A DNA stretch of 64,000 nt from Pelovirga terrestris (lineage in GTDB: Bacteria; Desulfobacterota; Desulfuromonadia; Desulfuromonadales; Geopsychrobacteraceae): positions 1 through 64,000 of the forward strand of contig NZ_JACWUN010000011.1 in the NCBI RefSeq assembly GCF_014773365.1, read 5' to 3'. Positions 9,930 through 15,457 of the stretch are shown here, in pieces. The translations under genes and the position numbers were made by a program. Position 1 is the first letter of the stretch. Each line of letters begins with the position of its first letter. The notes under the pieces were generated by a model. That model did no database searches. It was given only the letters and a program-made list of their open reading frames with translations, and was not told where the DNA came from.

Positions 9930-10943
9930 ATGGTCGTCAATTTGATTAACGAACGCGACCGAAATCTGGCCAGAGCGCTGGTCGAAGAAAACGGCTTCAG
10001 CTTCGAAGAAGATTATGATCTCCTGGTCGGCAAGTTTGAAGACGGCGAACTGGTCGCGACAGCGGCCCGCAGTCACAATGTTTTCAAGATGATCTGTATT
10101 CGGCAAAGTCACCGCGGGGGGGGATGTCTCGGCGCGTTGGTTACTGCGCTGATCAATAGCTGTGCCTACAGCGACATTCGCAATTTTTTCATCTTTACTA
10201 CTCTGGAAAACCGTGGTGCCTTTGAACATCTCAACTTTTTCCCCCTGGTGAGCCACGGCAATATCTGTCTGCTCGAATACGGACAGGGACTGTTGAGTTA
10301 TCTGCAGCAGCACCGTGAGCTTAGACTGGCCGGCAGCAATGGCGCGGTCGTCGTTAACTGCAACCCCTTTACCCTGGGACACCGCTATCTGATCGAAACT
10401 GCTGCGGCACAGGTAGATCACCTCTATATCTTTGTTGTCCGTGAAGATCGTTCGCTCTTTCCCTTTGACGTACGTATGGCCCTGGTCAGAGCAGGCACTG
10501 CCGATCTGGACAACGTTTCGGTTCTGGATACCTCTGACTACGCCGTCAGCCAGGTGACCTTTCCAGGTTATTTTTTAAAGCAGGATGATGATCGGCTGCA
10601 ACTGCAGATGGAGATCGATCTGTTGCTCTTTGCCCGAAAGATTGCACCTTTTTTTGGCATCACCCGGCGCTTTATTGGTACCGAACCTTACTGCCGAACC
10701 ACCCGTAGCTACAGCGATACAATGCCCCGTATCCTTGGACCGGAAGGAATCCAGACCATCCAGCTGGAAAGAAAACTGAGCGCAGATACCCCAATCAGCG
10801 CTTTTCGCGTCCGCAAAGCCCTGAAAAATGAGAACTACGAAGCGTTGCGCAAGCTGGTCCCGGCAACAACTCTGGAGTTTCTACGCAGCGCTGAAGGGCG
10901 CAAGCTACTGACTGCCAGTAAAAACTATCGCAGGAGACACTAA
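9930..10943 (+). CDS. citC: [citrate (pro-3S)-lyase] ligase
   Basis: A 337-residue enzyme that uses ATP and acetate to acetylate the prosthetic group of the citrate lyase acyl carrier subunit, switching the complex on. An N-terminal GNAT-like region (residues 1-110, with RQSHRGGGCLGALV) is followed by a nucleotidyltransferase domain with the (H/N)xGH motif NPFTLGHRYL near residue 151. It is the first gene of the operon. The ribosome site is AGAAAGGAAG, 12 bp before the ATG. The 178 bp upstream contain a TATAAT at 9831-9836 without a well-spaced -35, so the promoter is undefined. Confidence 0.93.
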   Translation: MVVNLINERDRNLARALVEENGFSFEEDYDLLVGKFEDGELVATAARSHNVFKMICIRQSHRGGGCLGALVTALINSCAYSDIRNFFIFTTLENRGAFEHLNFFPLVSHGNICLLEYGQGLLSYLQQHRELRLAGSNGAVVVNCNPFTLGHRYLIETAAAQVDHLYIFVVREDRSLFPFDVRMALVRAGTADLDNVSVLDTSDYAVSQVTFPGYFLKQDDDRLQLQMEIDLLLFARKIAPFFGITRRFIGTEPYCRTTRSYSDTMPRILGPEGIQTIQLERKLSADTPISAFRVRKALKNENYEALRKLVPATTLEFLRSAEGRKLLTASKNYRRRH

Positions 10944-10944
10944 G

Positions 10945-11223
10945 ATGGAAATCGTTCGCAAAGCCCAGGCCGGAACCATGCAATCAAGCGATCTGATGGT
11001 CTTTCTCGAGCCCGCGCCGCAACTAAGGCTTGAAATCGACTCAACGGTAAAAAAACAATTCGAACACCTCATTCGCAAGCAGGCTGAAAGTGTTCTCCAG
11101 CGTTTTTCCATCACCAGCGGGGTCATTCGCATCAGCGATCGCGGTGCCCTCGATTACGCCATCGCCGCGCGCCTGGAAACAGGTCTGTTGCGCGCCTGCG
11201 CCGACCAAAGGACATCATCATGA
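10945..11223 (+). CDS. citD: citrate lyase acyl carrier protein (gamma subunit)
   Basis: A 92-residue carrier that holds the 2'-(5''-phosphoribosyl)-3'-dephospho-CoA group on a serine near residue 14 (AGTMQSSDLMV). The acetyl and citryl thioesters form on this arm. Family length and the LEPAPQLRLEIDSTV segment match CitD. It begins 2 bp after the citC stop and overlaps the following PPC-domain gene by 4 bp (ATGA). Confidence 0.93.
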   Translation: MEIVRKAQAGTMQSSDLMVFLEPAPQLRLEIDSTVKKQFEHLIRKQAESVLQRFSITSGVIRISDRGALDYAIAARLETGLLRACADQRTSS

Positions 11224-11690
11224 ACGGCCTCCACTATCGCCAGTGGCAACCGGGACGCAATTTCCTGATCAAGATTGAACCGGGAGAGAGCCTTCGGACC
11301 TGCCTTAACCAATTTGCCCTGGACGCGGGCATCCACCACGCGGTAATCGTTTCGGCGGTCGGTTCGGTATGCAAGGCCGAGTTTCGCGGCATTAAATCAG
11401 GGGCCAAACGCCCCATCTCCGAACCACGGATGAGCCGTCATCACCTCGAAGGCCCCCTGGAGCTGATCGGGCTTGAAGGTAACCTGATTGCCGAAAGTTC
11501 CGGCAGCGTAGATATCCATCTCCATATTCTGCTGGGGAAAAGTTCGGGTGAAGTCGCTGGTGGACACCTGTTTGATGCTGAAGTTTTTGCCGGCTGTGAA
11601 ATTGCCCTCTGCGAAATGCAGGTGACCGGAGTCGCACGCTATGCTTCAAAATCTTCCGGTACACCAGCCATCTATATTGAAGAGGATTAA
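11220..11690 (+). CDS. PPC/DUF296-domain protein inside the citrate lyase operon
   Basis: A 156-residue protein recognised as a PPC (plant and prokaryote conserved, DUF296) domain. Features are GESLRTCLNQFALDAGIHHAVIVSAVGSV at the start of the fold, LHILLGKSSGEVAGGHLF in the centre, and the terminal strand VFAGCEIALCE. Bacterial PPC proteins are small trimers of largely unknown function; several bind metal through conserved histidines, and IHH and DIHLHI are candidates here. It overlaps citD by 4 bp and ends 2 bp before citE, so it is certainly co-transcribed. It is not a standard cit gene. A regulatory, metal-linked or prosthetic-group role is inference. It is not CitX, which is present further down. 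Confidence 0.8.
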   Translation: MNGLHYRQWQPGRNFLIKIEPGESLRTCLNQFALDAGIHHAVIVSAVGSVCKAEFRGIKSGAKRPISEPRMSRHHLEGPLELIGLEGNLIAESSGSVDIHLHILLGKSSGEVAGGHLFDAEVFAGCEIALCEMQVTGVARYASKSSGTPAIYIEED

Positions 11691-11692
11691 CC

Positions 11693-12616
11693 ATGGAAGA
11701 TTCCTTTCGCTTGCGCCGTTCCCTCCTTTATGTGCCGGGCAATATGCCATCAATGCTGCAGAACATTCCGATCTTTGAAAGTGATGCGGTCATGATCGAT
11801 CTTGAGGATGCCGTTCCATACAGTGAAAAAGACGCCGCCCGAACCCTGGTGCACAGTTTTTTAAGCACTTATCGGGAGCGCAACAAGGAGATTTTCGTTC
11901 GCATCAACGGTCTGAAAACCGACTGGTGGCAACAGGATCTGCTGGCGATCCTTCCGGCTCTGCCTGATGGCATCCGTCTGCCGGAAGCCGATTCCCCGGA
12001 GTTAGTTGAACAACTGGATACGGTGTTGACGGAGTTCGAGGAAGAACTGGGGATTGACATCGGCCATTTCAAGATTCTCCCTTCAATTGAAACGGCTGAA
12101 GGGGTCATCAACTGTATCAAGACCGCTCGCAGCTCCAATCGTTTGATCGGTCTGGCTTTTGGCGCCGAAGATTACACCGCCAGTCTGGAAATTGAACGCA
12201 CCAAGACTGGAGAGGAACTGTTTGCTGCGCGCACCCGTGTAGTCTGGGCCTGTAAAGCTGCCGGAATTCAAGCGATTGATACTATTTTTTCCGATGTATC
12301 CGACATGGAAGCCCTGCGCCGCGAAACAACCCTGATCAAAACCCTCGGTTTCTCGGGAAAATCCCTGGTTAACCCCCGTCAGATCGAGATTGTGCATGAG
12401 GTGTTCGCCCCGAAGCAGGAAGAGGTTGATTATGCCTTGCAGGTCATTGAAGCGATCCAGAAAGCGCGGGAAATGGGGACCGGAGTCATCTCACTTGGCG
12501 GAAAAATGATCGATGCTCCGGTGGTGAAACGTGCCCTGAAAATCCTCAAAACCGCCCAGGCCCACGGTCTGATCGATATGCCACTGGATGAAGAGGTTAT
12601 CTATGGTCACAAATAG
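11693..12616 (+). CDS. citE: citrate lyase beta subunit (citryl-ACP lyase)
   Basis: A 307-residue TIM-barrel lyase that cleaves citryl-ACP to oxaloacetate and acetyl-ACP. Signatures: LRRSLLYVPGN at the N-terminus, SDAVMIDLEDAVP (Mg-binding acidic residues), FVRINGL, ILPSIETAEGV and GLAFGAEDYTASL. Length is normal. It starts 2 bp after the PPC gene, and its 3' end overlaps citF. Confidence 0.95.
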   Translation: MEDSFRLRRSLLYVPGNMPSMLQNIPIFESDAVMIDLEDAVPYSEKDAARTLVHSFLSTYRERNKEIFVRINGLKTDWWQQDLLAILPALPDGIRLPEADSPELVEQLDTVLTEFEEELGIDIGHFKILPSIETAEGVINCIKTARSSNRLIGLAFGAEDYTASLEIERTKTGEELFAARTRVVWACKAAGIQAIDTIFSDVSDMEALRRETTLIKTLGFSGKSLVNPRQIEIVHEVFAPKQEEVDYALQVIEAIQKAREMGTGVISLGGKMIDAPVVKRALKILKTAQAHGLIDMPLDEEVIYGHK

Positions 12617-14141
12617 TCTGGGCCGGCCACTGCCGGAACATTTTTTTGGCAAAACGGTTCATCCCTATCAGGATCCCTACAACCGCAAACCGGTCGGCAA
12701 CCACGCGACCCGGCCACTGCGGCGGCATAACCCCGGTGATAAAAAATTGCTCGGCAACTTGCGCAAAGCGATCGAAGCTTCCGGGCTGAGAAGTGGAATG
12801 TGTATCGCCACCCACCATCACCTGCGCAACGGTGACGCCCTGCTTAACCTGGTCGTCCGTGAAATTGACAACCTGGGCCTGCGCGATATCCGCATCGCCT
12901 CCAGCTCGGTTCATCCGGTCCACGCCGAACTGATCCCTTTTATCAAAAAAGGGGTCATCAGCGGATTTGAATGTGGGGTCAATGGTCTGATCGGCGAAAT
13001 GGTCTCCCGCGGCGAGCTTGACTGTCCGATTATCGTGCGCACCCACGGTGGCCGGGCCCGCTCCCTGATCACCGGCGAGGTGGTAGTCGATGTGGCTTTT
13101 ATCGCCGCACCGTCCTGCGATTGTTACGGCAACATGAACGGCTTTTTCGGTCCGTCAGCCTGTGGGAGCCTCGGTTATGCCTTCACCGATGCCCAATATG
13201 CCCGCTGTGTGGTTGCGGTTACCGACAATCTGAGCGCTGCTCCGGTCACACCGGTGTCGATTCCCCAGTCGCTGGTTGATTATGTTGTTGAGGTTAACCG
13301 CCTCGGTGACCCGCGCAAAATCGTCTCGACGACTACCCAGATAACCCGTGACCCGGTCGGCCTGCAGATTGCCCGCTACGCCGCCCAGGTGATCGATGCG
13401 TCAGGCCTGCTGCGCGATGGCTTTTCCTTTCAGACCGGAGCCGGGGGGATTTCCCTGGCGGTGGCCGAACAGGTCCGGCGGATGATGAGTCAGGCCCAGA
13501 TTAAAGGGAGCTTCGGTTGTGGCGGGATCACCGGCTATTTTGTCGATATGCTTGAAGAAGGGCTGTTCCGCACCCTGTTCGATGTTCAGTGTTTTGATCT
13601 CAAGGCAGTGGAGTCGATCGGCCGCAATCTGCACCATCAGGAAATGAGCGCCGACACCTACGCCAATCCCTTCAATGCCGGAGCGATGGTCAACCTGCTT
13701 GATTGTGTTATCCTCGGCGCCACCGAAATCGATGTCGATTTCAACGTCAACGTCAATACCGAATCCAATGGCTACCTGCTGCATAATACCGGCGGCCACA
13801 GTGACGCCGCAGCGGGAGCCAAATTATCGATCATCACCGCGCCCCTGCTGCGTGGTCGGCTACCGATCATCCGTGATACCGTGACCACGGTCACCACACC
13901 GGGACGCACCATTGATGTTATCGTCACTGAACGCGGCATCGCCGTTAATAATCATCAGCAGGAACTCAAGGAGGAACTGATCAGGCGCAAAGTACCGGTT
14001 CGCGATATTCACGAACTAAGAGAGGAAGCCTGTCGCATCACCGGTGAGCCGCACCCGATCGAGTTTACCGACGAAGTTGTGGCCCTGATCGAGTACCGGG
14101 ATGGGACCATTATCGATGCTGTACGCAAAGTTAAGGAGTGA
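12603..14141 (+). CDS. citF: citrate lyase alpha subunit (citrate:acetyl-ACP transferase)
   Basis: A 512-residue CoA-transferase-like subunit that exchanges citrate for acetate on the acyl carrier protein. Motifs include a Gly-rich AFTDAQYARC region, QTGAGGISLAV, GSFGCGGITGY and TERGIAVN near the C-terminus. The ATG at 12603 is chosen because GAAGAGG lies 6 bp upstream. It overlaps the end of citE by 14 bp, which is typical of tight translational coupling. Confidence 0.95.
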   Translation: MVTNSLGRPLPEHFFGKTVHPYQDPYNRKPVGNHATRPLRRHNPGDKKLLGNLRKAIEASGLRSGMCIATHHHLRNGDALLNLVVREIDNLGLRDIRIASSSVHPVHAELIPFIKKGVISGFECGVNGLIGEMVSRGELDCPIIVRTHGGRARSLITGEVVVDVAFIAAPSCDCYGNMNGFFGPSACGSLGYAFTDAQYARCVVAVTDNLSAAPVTPVSIPQSLVDYVVEVNRLGDPRKIVSTTTQITRDPVGLQIARYAAQVIDASGLLRDGFSFQTGAGGISLAVAEQVRRMMSQAQIKGSFGCGGITGYFVDMLEEGLFRTLFDVQCFDLKAVESIGRNLHHQEMSADTYANPFNAGAMVNLLDCVILGATEIDVDFNVNVNTESNGYLLHNTGGHSDAAAGAKLSIITAPLLRGRLPIIRDTVTTVTTPGRTIDVIVTERGIAVNNHQQELKEELIRRKVPVRDIHELREEACRITGEPHPIEFTDEVVALIEYRDGTIIDAVRKVKE

Positions 14142-14619
14142 CATCCTCGCCGCCCGCGACGAGCGCCAGCGCGCGCTTGAACAGCGGACGGCAGGCGATT
14201 CCCGGACCCTGGTGCTGTTGTCACTCAACCTCCCGGGGCGGGACAAGCAGGAAACCGGTTTCGATCCACTGATTACCTGGGGGGAGCAACAACTTAAGTA
14301 TTATATTGAGGATCTTGAACCAATCACCCGGCACACCGATGTTCTGGGTCCCTGGGCCCTCTATGCCGGCAACCTGCCGGCGGTAGCAGCTAAACAGATC
14401 GGCTGTATGATCGAAGAAAGTTGCGCCGCCGCGCGCCTGCTTGATATTGATATTTATGACAATAATGCAGTGCCTTACCACCGACAGCAGCTCGGACATC
14501 CACCCCGCTCCTGTTTCCTTTGTCCGGCACCAGCGACCGAATGTATCCGCCTCGGCCGTCACTCTTCCCAGGAATTGCAACGCTACCTTGAACGCCTCCG
14601 TGACCACCTCCCGACTTGA
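14116..14619 (+). CDS. citX: apo-citrate lyase phosphoribosyl-dephospho-CoA transferase
   Basis: A 167-residue protein that attaches the prosthetic group precursor to apo-CitD. It is recognised by LVLLSLNLPGRDKQ near the start, GPWALYAG, and the C-terminal RSCFLCPAPATECIR. The likely start at 14116 lies inside citF (26-bp overlap). It comes just before citG, the enzyme that makes its substrate. Confidence 0.88.
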   Translation: MLYAKLRSDILAARDERQRALEQRTAGDSRTLVLLSLNLPGRDKQETGFDPLITWGEQQLKYYIEDLEPITRHTDVLGPWALYAGNLPAVAAKQIGCMIEESCAAARLLDIDIYDNNAVPYHRQQLGHPPRSCFLCPAPATECIRLGRHSSQELQRYLERLRDHLPT

Positions 14620-15457
14620 AACCCTGGCCACCGCTCTGGCCAACGGCTTGCGGGCCGAGTTGTATCTGACCCCCAAGCCGGGACTGGTTGATTTGAGGGA
14701 CAATGGTGCCCACCCGGATCTGAACCTGCTCCTTATGTGTCGTTCGATCCGGCTGGTTGATGGCTATCTGCAGGAACTGGCTGGAGCGCTGCTCAGGAAC
14801 GCCGGACCGGACGAACTGATCGCTATCGGTCGGCAGGCGGAACATACTATGATAAAACAACTGGGCAGCAATACCCATCGTGGAGGGATATTCCTCTGCG
14901 GACTGATTCTGGTCGCCGCCGATCAAGCCAATCCCGACGATCCCCAGGCGTTGCAACAGTCCGTCATACAGATTGCTGCAGCTTTTTTTGCCAAGCGGGA
15001 AGAGCAAAGCAGCAACGGCGAGCAGGTCCGGCGCCAGCACCCTGCTGCCGGCATTGTCACTGAGGCGTTGGCTGGCCTGCCGAATCTTTTTGACACCATT
15101 CTTCCTATTCTCAATGACCCGCGTACCCTCGAAGAACCGCGGCGCGTTTATCTGGCCCTGGCCCGCCTGATGCAAAAGGTCCAGGACTCGACCAGCCTTC
15201 ACCGCTGTGGCGAACAGGGATTGACCCTGCTCCGACAGGCAGGGGCGCGCCTCGAAGAGTGTATCCTTGGTGGTCACGACCCGACCCATCTGCTTACTCA
15301 GACCAACCGGGAATTCCGCCGCCACAACCTGACCATGGGGGGCGTTGCAGACCTGTTGGGGGTTGGACTCGGTTACGCTGGATACCTGCTGTCCAACCTC
15401 ACGTACCATCAGGGTTACGAGGAAATTTCACCAGAGAGGAAAAAAGCAGGAATATGA
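14600..15457 (+). CDS. citG: triphosphoribosyl-dephospho-CoA synthase
   Basis: About 285 residues. It makes 2'-(5''-triphosphoribosyl)-3'-dephospho-CoA from ATP and dephospho-CoA, the prosthetic-group precursor for CitD. Signatures: LTPKPGLVDLRDNGAHPDL near the N-terminus, LGSNTHRGGIFLCG, and the C-terminal GGVADLLG. The frame extends upstream into citX but without similarity. A GTG at 14600 (VTTSRLET) is the most plausible start, with TTG at 14588 as alternative. It is the last gene of the operon. Confidence 0.9.
   Translation: MTTSRLETLATALANGLRAELYLTPKPGLVDLRDNGAHPDLNLLLMCRSIRLVDGYLQELAGALLRNAGPDELIAIGRQAEHTMIKQLGSNTHRGGIFLCGLILVAADQANPDDPQALQQSVIQIAAAFFAKREEQSSNGEQVRRQHPAAGIVTEALAGLPNLFDTILPILNDPRTLEEPRRVYLALARLMQKVQDSTSLHRCGEQGLTLLRQAGARLEECILGGHDPTHLLTQTNREFRRHNLTMGGVADLLGVGLGYAGYLLSNLTYHQGYEEISPERKKAGI

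Follow-up and report, generated by a model that had tools for sequence, protein, structure and literature searches.

Citrate cleavage by citrate lyase yields the beta-keto acid oxaloacetate, for which the classical cases are the CitM oxaloacetate decarboxylase of lactic acid bacteria and OadGAB of Klebsiella. In Klebsiella, Enterococcus, Azospirillum and the Desulfobacterota group g122, the standard genes citCDEFXG are found in the same order as in the locus described here, but nothing of the PPC/DUF296 family lies between citD and citE, and transporter, malic-enzyme or FAH-family genes occur instead. For other phyla, the cit operons examined came from plasmid records, and these operons are devoid of PPC. 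A malic enzyme is among the neighbours in Enterococcus faecium and Secundilactobacillus, a malic enzyme and an FAH-family protein in Azospirillum, and an FAH-family protein annotated as decarboxylase in Klebsiella aerogenes. The FAH-family genes (PF01557) of Klebsiella aerogenes (L188:5085-5948) and Azospirillum (L087:4848-5696) lie directly 5' of citC and are candidates for the oxaloacetate decarboxylase or tautomerase of these operons.

The PPC domains of plants act in DNA-binding proteins, and we know of no PPC protein with a demonstrated enzymatic activity. According to a 2025 PNAS commentary (PMC12435205), the human protein C11orf54 binds zinc on three histidines, is related in structure to acetolactate decarboxylase and has been shown to be a beta-ketogulonate decarboxylase; it was formerly termed an ester hydrolase on the basis of p-nitrophenyl acetate cleavage.

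Organization of the cit operon

In the window, i.e. the whole analysed stretch of 64,000 nucleotides from Pelovirga terrestris, positions 9930-15457 carry, all on the + strand, citC, citD, a PPC/DUF296 gene, citE, citF, citX and citG. The [citrate lyase] ligase gene citC (9930-10943; PF08218, E = 3.1e-67; TIGR00124 above cut-off) is followed by citD for the acyl carrier protein (10945-11223; TIGR01608 above cut-off). Downstream of the PPC/DUF296 gene are citE for the beta subunit (11693-12616; PF03328, E = 2.1e-59; the best NCBIfam model is citE, below its cut-off), citF for the alpha subunit (12588-14141; TIGR01584 above cut-off), citX for the holo-ACP synthase (14101-14619; PF03802, E = 7.7e-33) and citG for the triphosphoribosyl-dephospho-CoA synthase (14441-15457; PF01874, E = 3.9e-48). 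The citG coordinates are those of the longest ORF, and its true start is probably closer to the citX end because the Pfam match begins at residue 64. Scanning the operon for promoters and terminators produced match numbers similar to those of shuffled sequence.

The PPC/DUF296 ORF (11220-11690, + strand) begins with ATG and encodes 156 residues (16.8 kDa). Its first 4 bases (ATGA) overlap citD, and the stop codon lies 2 bases 5' of the citE ATG (11693); both junctions, as given in the original prediction, were verified from the ORF coordinates. The product matches PF03479 (PCC) and no other Pfam model (E = 4.9e-23, 82.1 bits for a gathering cut-off of 25), and no NCBIfam model was matched. The statement that the standard cit components are not of this family was also borne out.

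Linkage and distribution in the class

The citD-DUF296-citE order, whose occurrence in other genomes had been proposed as a check, was found in 47 genomes and is thus not the property of a single one. The slot is kept in all 47 canonical citCDEFXG loci of the class, counts of co-occurrence which are not phylogenetically independent, and the gene is tied to citrate lyase. With this class-wide recurrence at the same slot, a horizontal oddity of a single genome was rejected. The 136 genomes of the order contribute 25 canonical citC-D loci, with PPC in the citD-citE slot in 25/25, and the further 22 loci, from families f22 and f23, all possess it. When the order was searched with a profile built from 24 PPC proteins (alignment A1), exactly those 25 genomes were retrieved at E<1e-76, and the rest of the order gave two weak matches (4.6e-11 and 2.4e-8). 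In 234 genomes of the class, 43 matches with E<1e-70 were obtained, all in cit-bearing genomes; the next match was at 4e-11, which leaves a gap of 60 orders of magnitude. No cit-type PPC without a canonical cit operon was detected among the class genomes searched, and a genome of the window's own genus g1 (G003, 99% complete) has neither citD nor PPC.

The PPC start is located between -4 and +23 bp from the citD stop in 46 of the 47 loci (+86 in the exception), and PPC and citE nearly touch or overlap across loci. Compared with a 92%-identical relative (L012), the dN/dS of PPC is about 0.04, equal to that of citE, and the gene is under purifying selection. The cit-type PPC gene is a seventh operon member specific to this lineage, always present, and unnamed, in the canonical citrate lyase loci of this group of iron- and sulfur-reducing bacteria. 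In G. bemidjiensis, the operon called citCDEFXG covers Gbem_3862-Gbem_3856, citX being 3857 and citG 3856 (PMC2996986); with seven locus tags for six gene names, the extra gene apparently escaped comment, and we infer that it would be the cit-type PPC. Our literature search found no paper linking DUF296 with citrate lyase.

Several cit loci lack the gene. PPC is absent, within the stretches examined, from the cit operons of other Desulfobacterota (g122, g217) and from the divergent citDEF sets of g4 and f24. Genera g4 of the order and g296 of family f24 provide fused CitD-CitE proteins (L096:6773-7987, L169:4805-6133, also L045-L049 and L170), with no citC match within the stretch examined. 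A plasmid search with the PPC protein returned nothing at E<=0.01, and a scan of viral contigs detected no PPC relative. In two genomes, genes for an OadB-like beta subunit, a biotin carrier and a carboxyltransferase lie directly 5' of citC on the same strand (L175:10335-13850, L176:11137-14694), a set which resembles the Na+-pumping methylmalonyl-CoA decarboxylase.

The original prediction also suggested a help in maturation of the acyl carrier protein. This is unlikely, as none of the known maturation genes (citC, citX, citG) is missing and as a citX-citG pair (L173:6045-7308) occurs in a genome (G094) without citD and without PPC; the idea was consequently rejected as the leading one, on the strength of the stand-alone pair of this one genome and of the comparable published citX/citG pair of G. 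sulfurreducens (GSU0806-0807, PMC2996986). The L173 pair might reflect a second role of the prosthetic group.

The strict linkage inside the structural gene block, the tight junctions and a selection as strong as on citE would also suit a protein without catalytic function that belongs to the citrate lyase complex as a subunit or binds an effector there; a trimer, for instance, might dock on the complex, bind citrate or a metal-citrate chelate, and tune activity or stability. PPC tracks the structural genes and not citX/citG, as the G094 pair illustrates, and the invariant basic loop described below could, judging by its residues, bind citrate. Nevertheless, three invariant histidines, several invariant glutamates and an arginine that matches one in the active site of an enzyme suggest catalysis, and the citrate lyase of other phyla works without such a subunit, so that we consider this role unlikely.

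Predicted fold and conserved residues

The AlphaFold2 model of the PPC protein, computed with 23 sequences, has a pLDDT of 93.5. When structures were ranked with Foldseek and VIA-align, PPC structures came first with Z values of 17-20 (2dt4, Z 19.7; 2h6l, the 'metal-containing' AF0104, Z 19.3), and the protein is thus predicted to have the PPC fold. AF0104 and PH0802 (2dt4) share with the cit-type PPC the fold (Z 19-20), about 30% identity, the three histidines and the GGHLF motif; they have no assigned function, whereas the cit-type protein possesses a longer, invariant basic loop (residues 56-71) and is encoded solely in cit operons. Acetolactate decarboxylases came next, with Z values of 7.7-9.4 across about 115 residues and Foldseek E values as low as 2.8e-4, and then human PTD012/C11orf54 (Z 5.6), ahead of unrelated lectins. 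A Z of 8-9 to acetolactate decarboxylase is not in itself proof; all chains of this enzyme cluster above background. In a search with the family profile, the acetolactate decarboxylase 4bt2 was likewise next after the PPC structures (E=0.023). The hhalign probability between the two families was marginal (2-9%), and the acetolactate decarboxylase model PF03306 was not among the Pfam matches of the PPC protein.

Acetolactate decarboxylase has in common with the cit-type PPC the core fold, the HLH...GGH metal site and an arginine at the place of R56. It differs by its larger size (about 220-257 residues, with an additional N-terminal part), by an identity of 9-16% and by its location at other loci; it is separately encoded in 14 of 134 genomes of the order. 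C11orf54/PTD012 (DUF1907) resembles the cit-type PPC by its three-histidine zinc site and related fold, but the match is weak, the protein is eukaryotic and the solved chain has 313 residues.

Residues R56, K59, R70, H100, H102 and H116 are invariant in 47/47 cit-type proteins. The three arginine and lysine positions belong to the basic loop (RGIKSGAKRPISEPRM, 11385-11432). H100-L-H102 (11517-11525), the predicted first and second metal ligands, is also invariant in all rows of alignment A2, and G114-G115-H116 (11559-11567) carries the predicted third ligand. The three-histidine site of the PF03479 family is thus intact in the window protein. In MAFFT and HMM alignments, the HLH...GGH residues of acetolactate decarboxylase are in register with H100/H102 and H116, and the conserved arginine of its TRSVP motif, 49 residues before the first histidine, with R56; the acetolactate decarboxylases aligned (A3) were those from genomes of the order. 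With unmasked sequences, MAFFT placed R56 on this arginine in every setting. The register was kept in 14/14 cases with both arginines masked and in 22/28 with one side masked, compared with 4/30 in the jumbled-segment control; when the acetolactate decarboxylase arginine alone was masked and cit-type rows only were used, the arginine moved by 5 columns in 6/7 settings. The active-site residues of the B. brevis enzyme are R145, which is catalytic, H194, H196 and H207, and the spacing of 49 agrees with R145-H194. R56 is present in some other PPC proteins and is therefore not cit-specific.

One of the nearest non-cit relatives, with a similarly long basic loop (L088:6203-6718), is grouped with genes for a beta-keto-acid cleavage enzyme, an acyl-CoA dehydrogenase, an aldehyde ferredoxin oxidoreductase and an apparent ABC transporter for branched-chain amino acids. 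Two other relatives (L089:5946-6458, L090:3671-4183) adjoin genes for an aldehyde dehydrogenase and for two families that match no Pfam model, and the L090 group includes a ketopantoate hydroxymethyltransferase homologue.

PPC proteins being commonly annotated as DNA-binding, the cit-type protein could regulate the operon by binding DNA or sensing a metal, and the E. coli DUF296 protein LmiA, a reported virulence regulator, has a predicted three-histidine zinc site (PMC7667037). The AT-hook core (GRP or RGR) was nevertheless absent from all 24 sequences of alignment A1, the pI is 6.05, the gene is placed among structural genes and not beside a promoter, and the pocket-type site is strongly conserved. 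A regulatory function appears very improbable.

A putative function on oxaloacetate

The explanation that we favour, tentatively, is that the cit-type PPC may be a metal-dependent enzyme acting on oxaloacetate, which it would decarboxylate or tautomerise. The protein would then be small and soluble, and H100, H102 and H116 would coordinate a single divalent metal ion, probably zinc. The carboxylate and keto oxygen of oxaloacetate would be bound by this metal together with R56 and the basic loop, and the substrate would be converted to pyruvate and CO2. Keto-enol tautomerisation of the same substrate is a close variant. The protein would fill the role played beside cit operons elsewhere by the malic-enzyme-type CitM, FAH-family proteins or OadGAB. 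Both fold relatives that have been assayed, acetolactate decarboxylase and C11orf54, decarboxylate beta-keto acids. A metal- or effector-sensing subunit had been proposed in the original prediction; sensing is possible, but an enzymatic role on oxaloacetate is the better guess because of the relationship to zinc beta-keto-acid decarboxylases.

Other observations count against an oxaloacetate enzyme. The sequence similarity to acetolactate decarboxylase is marginal, and several PPC-bearing genomes have other oxaloacetate-decarboxylating systems: two are described in G. bemidjiensis (PMC2996986), and OAD_beta matches were found in 10 genomes, in at least one case next to a methylmalonyl-CoA-decarboxylase-like carboxyltransferase. 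Destruction of oxaloacetate would also be counterproductive if the lyase works in a reverse TCA cycle, the role proposed in G. bemidjiensis. As to the source of citrate, a carrier of the 2HCT family was not found in the 24 PPC-bearing genomes tested and was present in 4/7 g122/g217 genomes, one of them as a partial match.

The cit-type PPC could also be the citrate lyase deacetylase (EC 3.1.2.16), a thioesterase to which, to our knowledge, no gene or sequence has been assigned. It would target the same complex, hydrolysing the acetyl thioester of CitD and switching the lyase off, opposite to CitC, which would prevent futile cycling with citrate synthase. The PPC gene adjoins the acyl carrier gene citD, and citrate synthase (PF00285) was detected in 24/24 PPC-bearing genomes tested and in 0/7 cit-bearing, PPC-free g122/g217 genomes, a contrast which agrees with a requirement for turning the lyase off but is confounded with phylogeny, which explains it equally. 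E. coli and Klebsiella possess both citrate lyase and citrate synthase and, as far as is known, no PPC. The hydrolysis of p-nitrophenyl acetate reported for PTD012, of related fold, in the commentary (PMC12435205) is consistent with a thioesterase, but such esterase activity is common among zinc proteins and the two assayed fold relatives are decarboxylases. Deacetylase activity is attributed to Rhodopseudomonas gelatinosa and R. palustris in a title cited in PMC11204750, and citrate lyase is not mentioned in the genome paper of R. gelatinosus CBS. We regard this assignment as quite unlikely. In Azospirillum thermophilum, a serine hydrolase gene (PF06821, L087:11247-11876) located 3' of citG is possibly a deacetylase candidate for that operon.

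Implications

The oxaloacetate reading leads to a broader and more doubtful proposal, namely that bacterial PPC/DUF296 proteins could be small metal-dependent beta-keto-acid enzymes, kin of acetolactate decarboxylase and C11orf54 and not DNA-binding, of which the cit type would be a new oxaloacetate decarboxylase in citrate lyase operons. If true, this would be the first biochemical function for a large family whose DNA-binding annotation derives from analogy to plant proteins. Should the deacetylase assignment hold instead, it would provide the gene for an activity believed to have none. An unrecognised component would be added to a textbook enzyme system in the relatives of Geobacter and Desulfuromonas, with a bearing on whether these bacteria use citrate lyase for citrate breakdown or for CO2 fixation.
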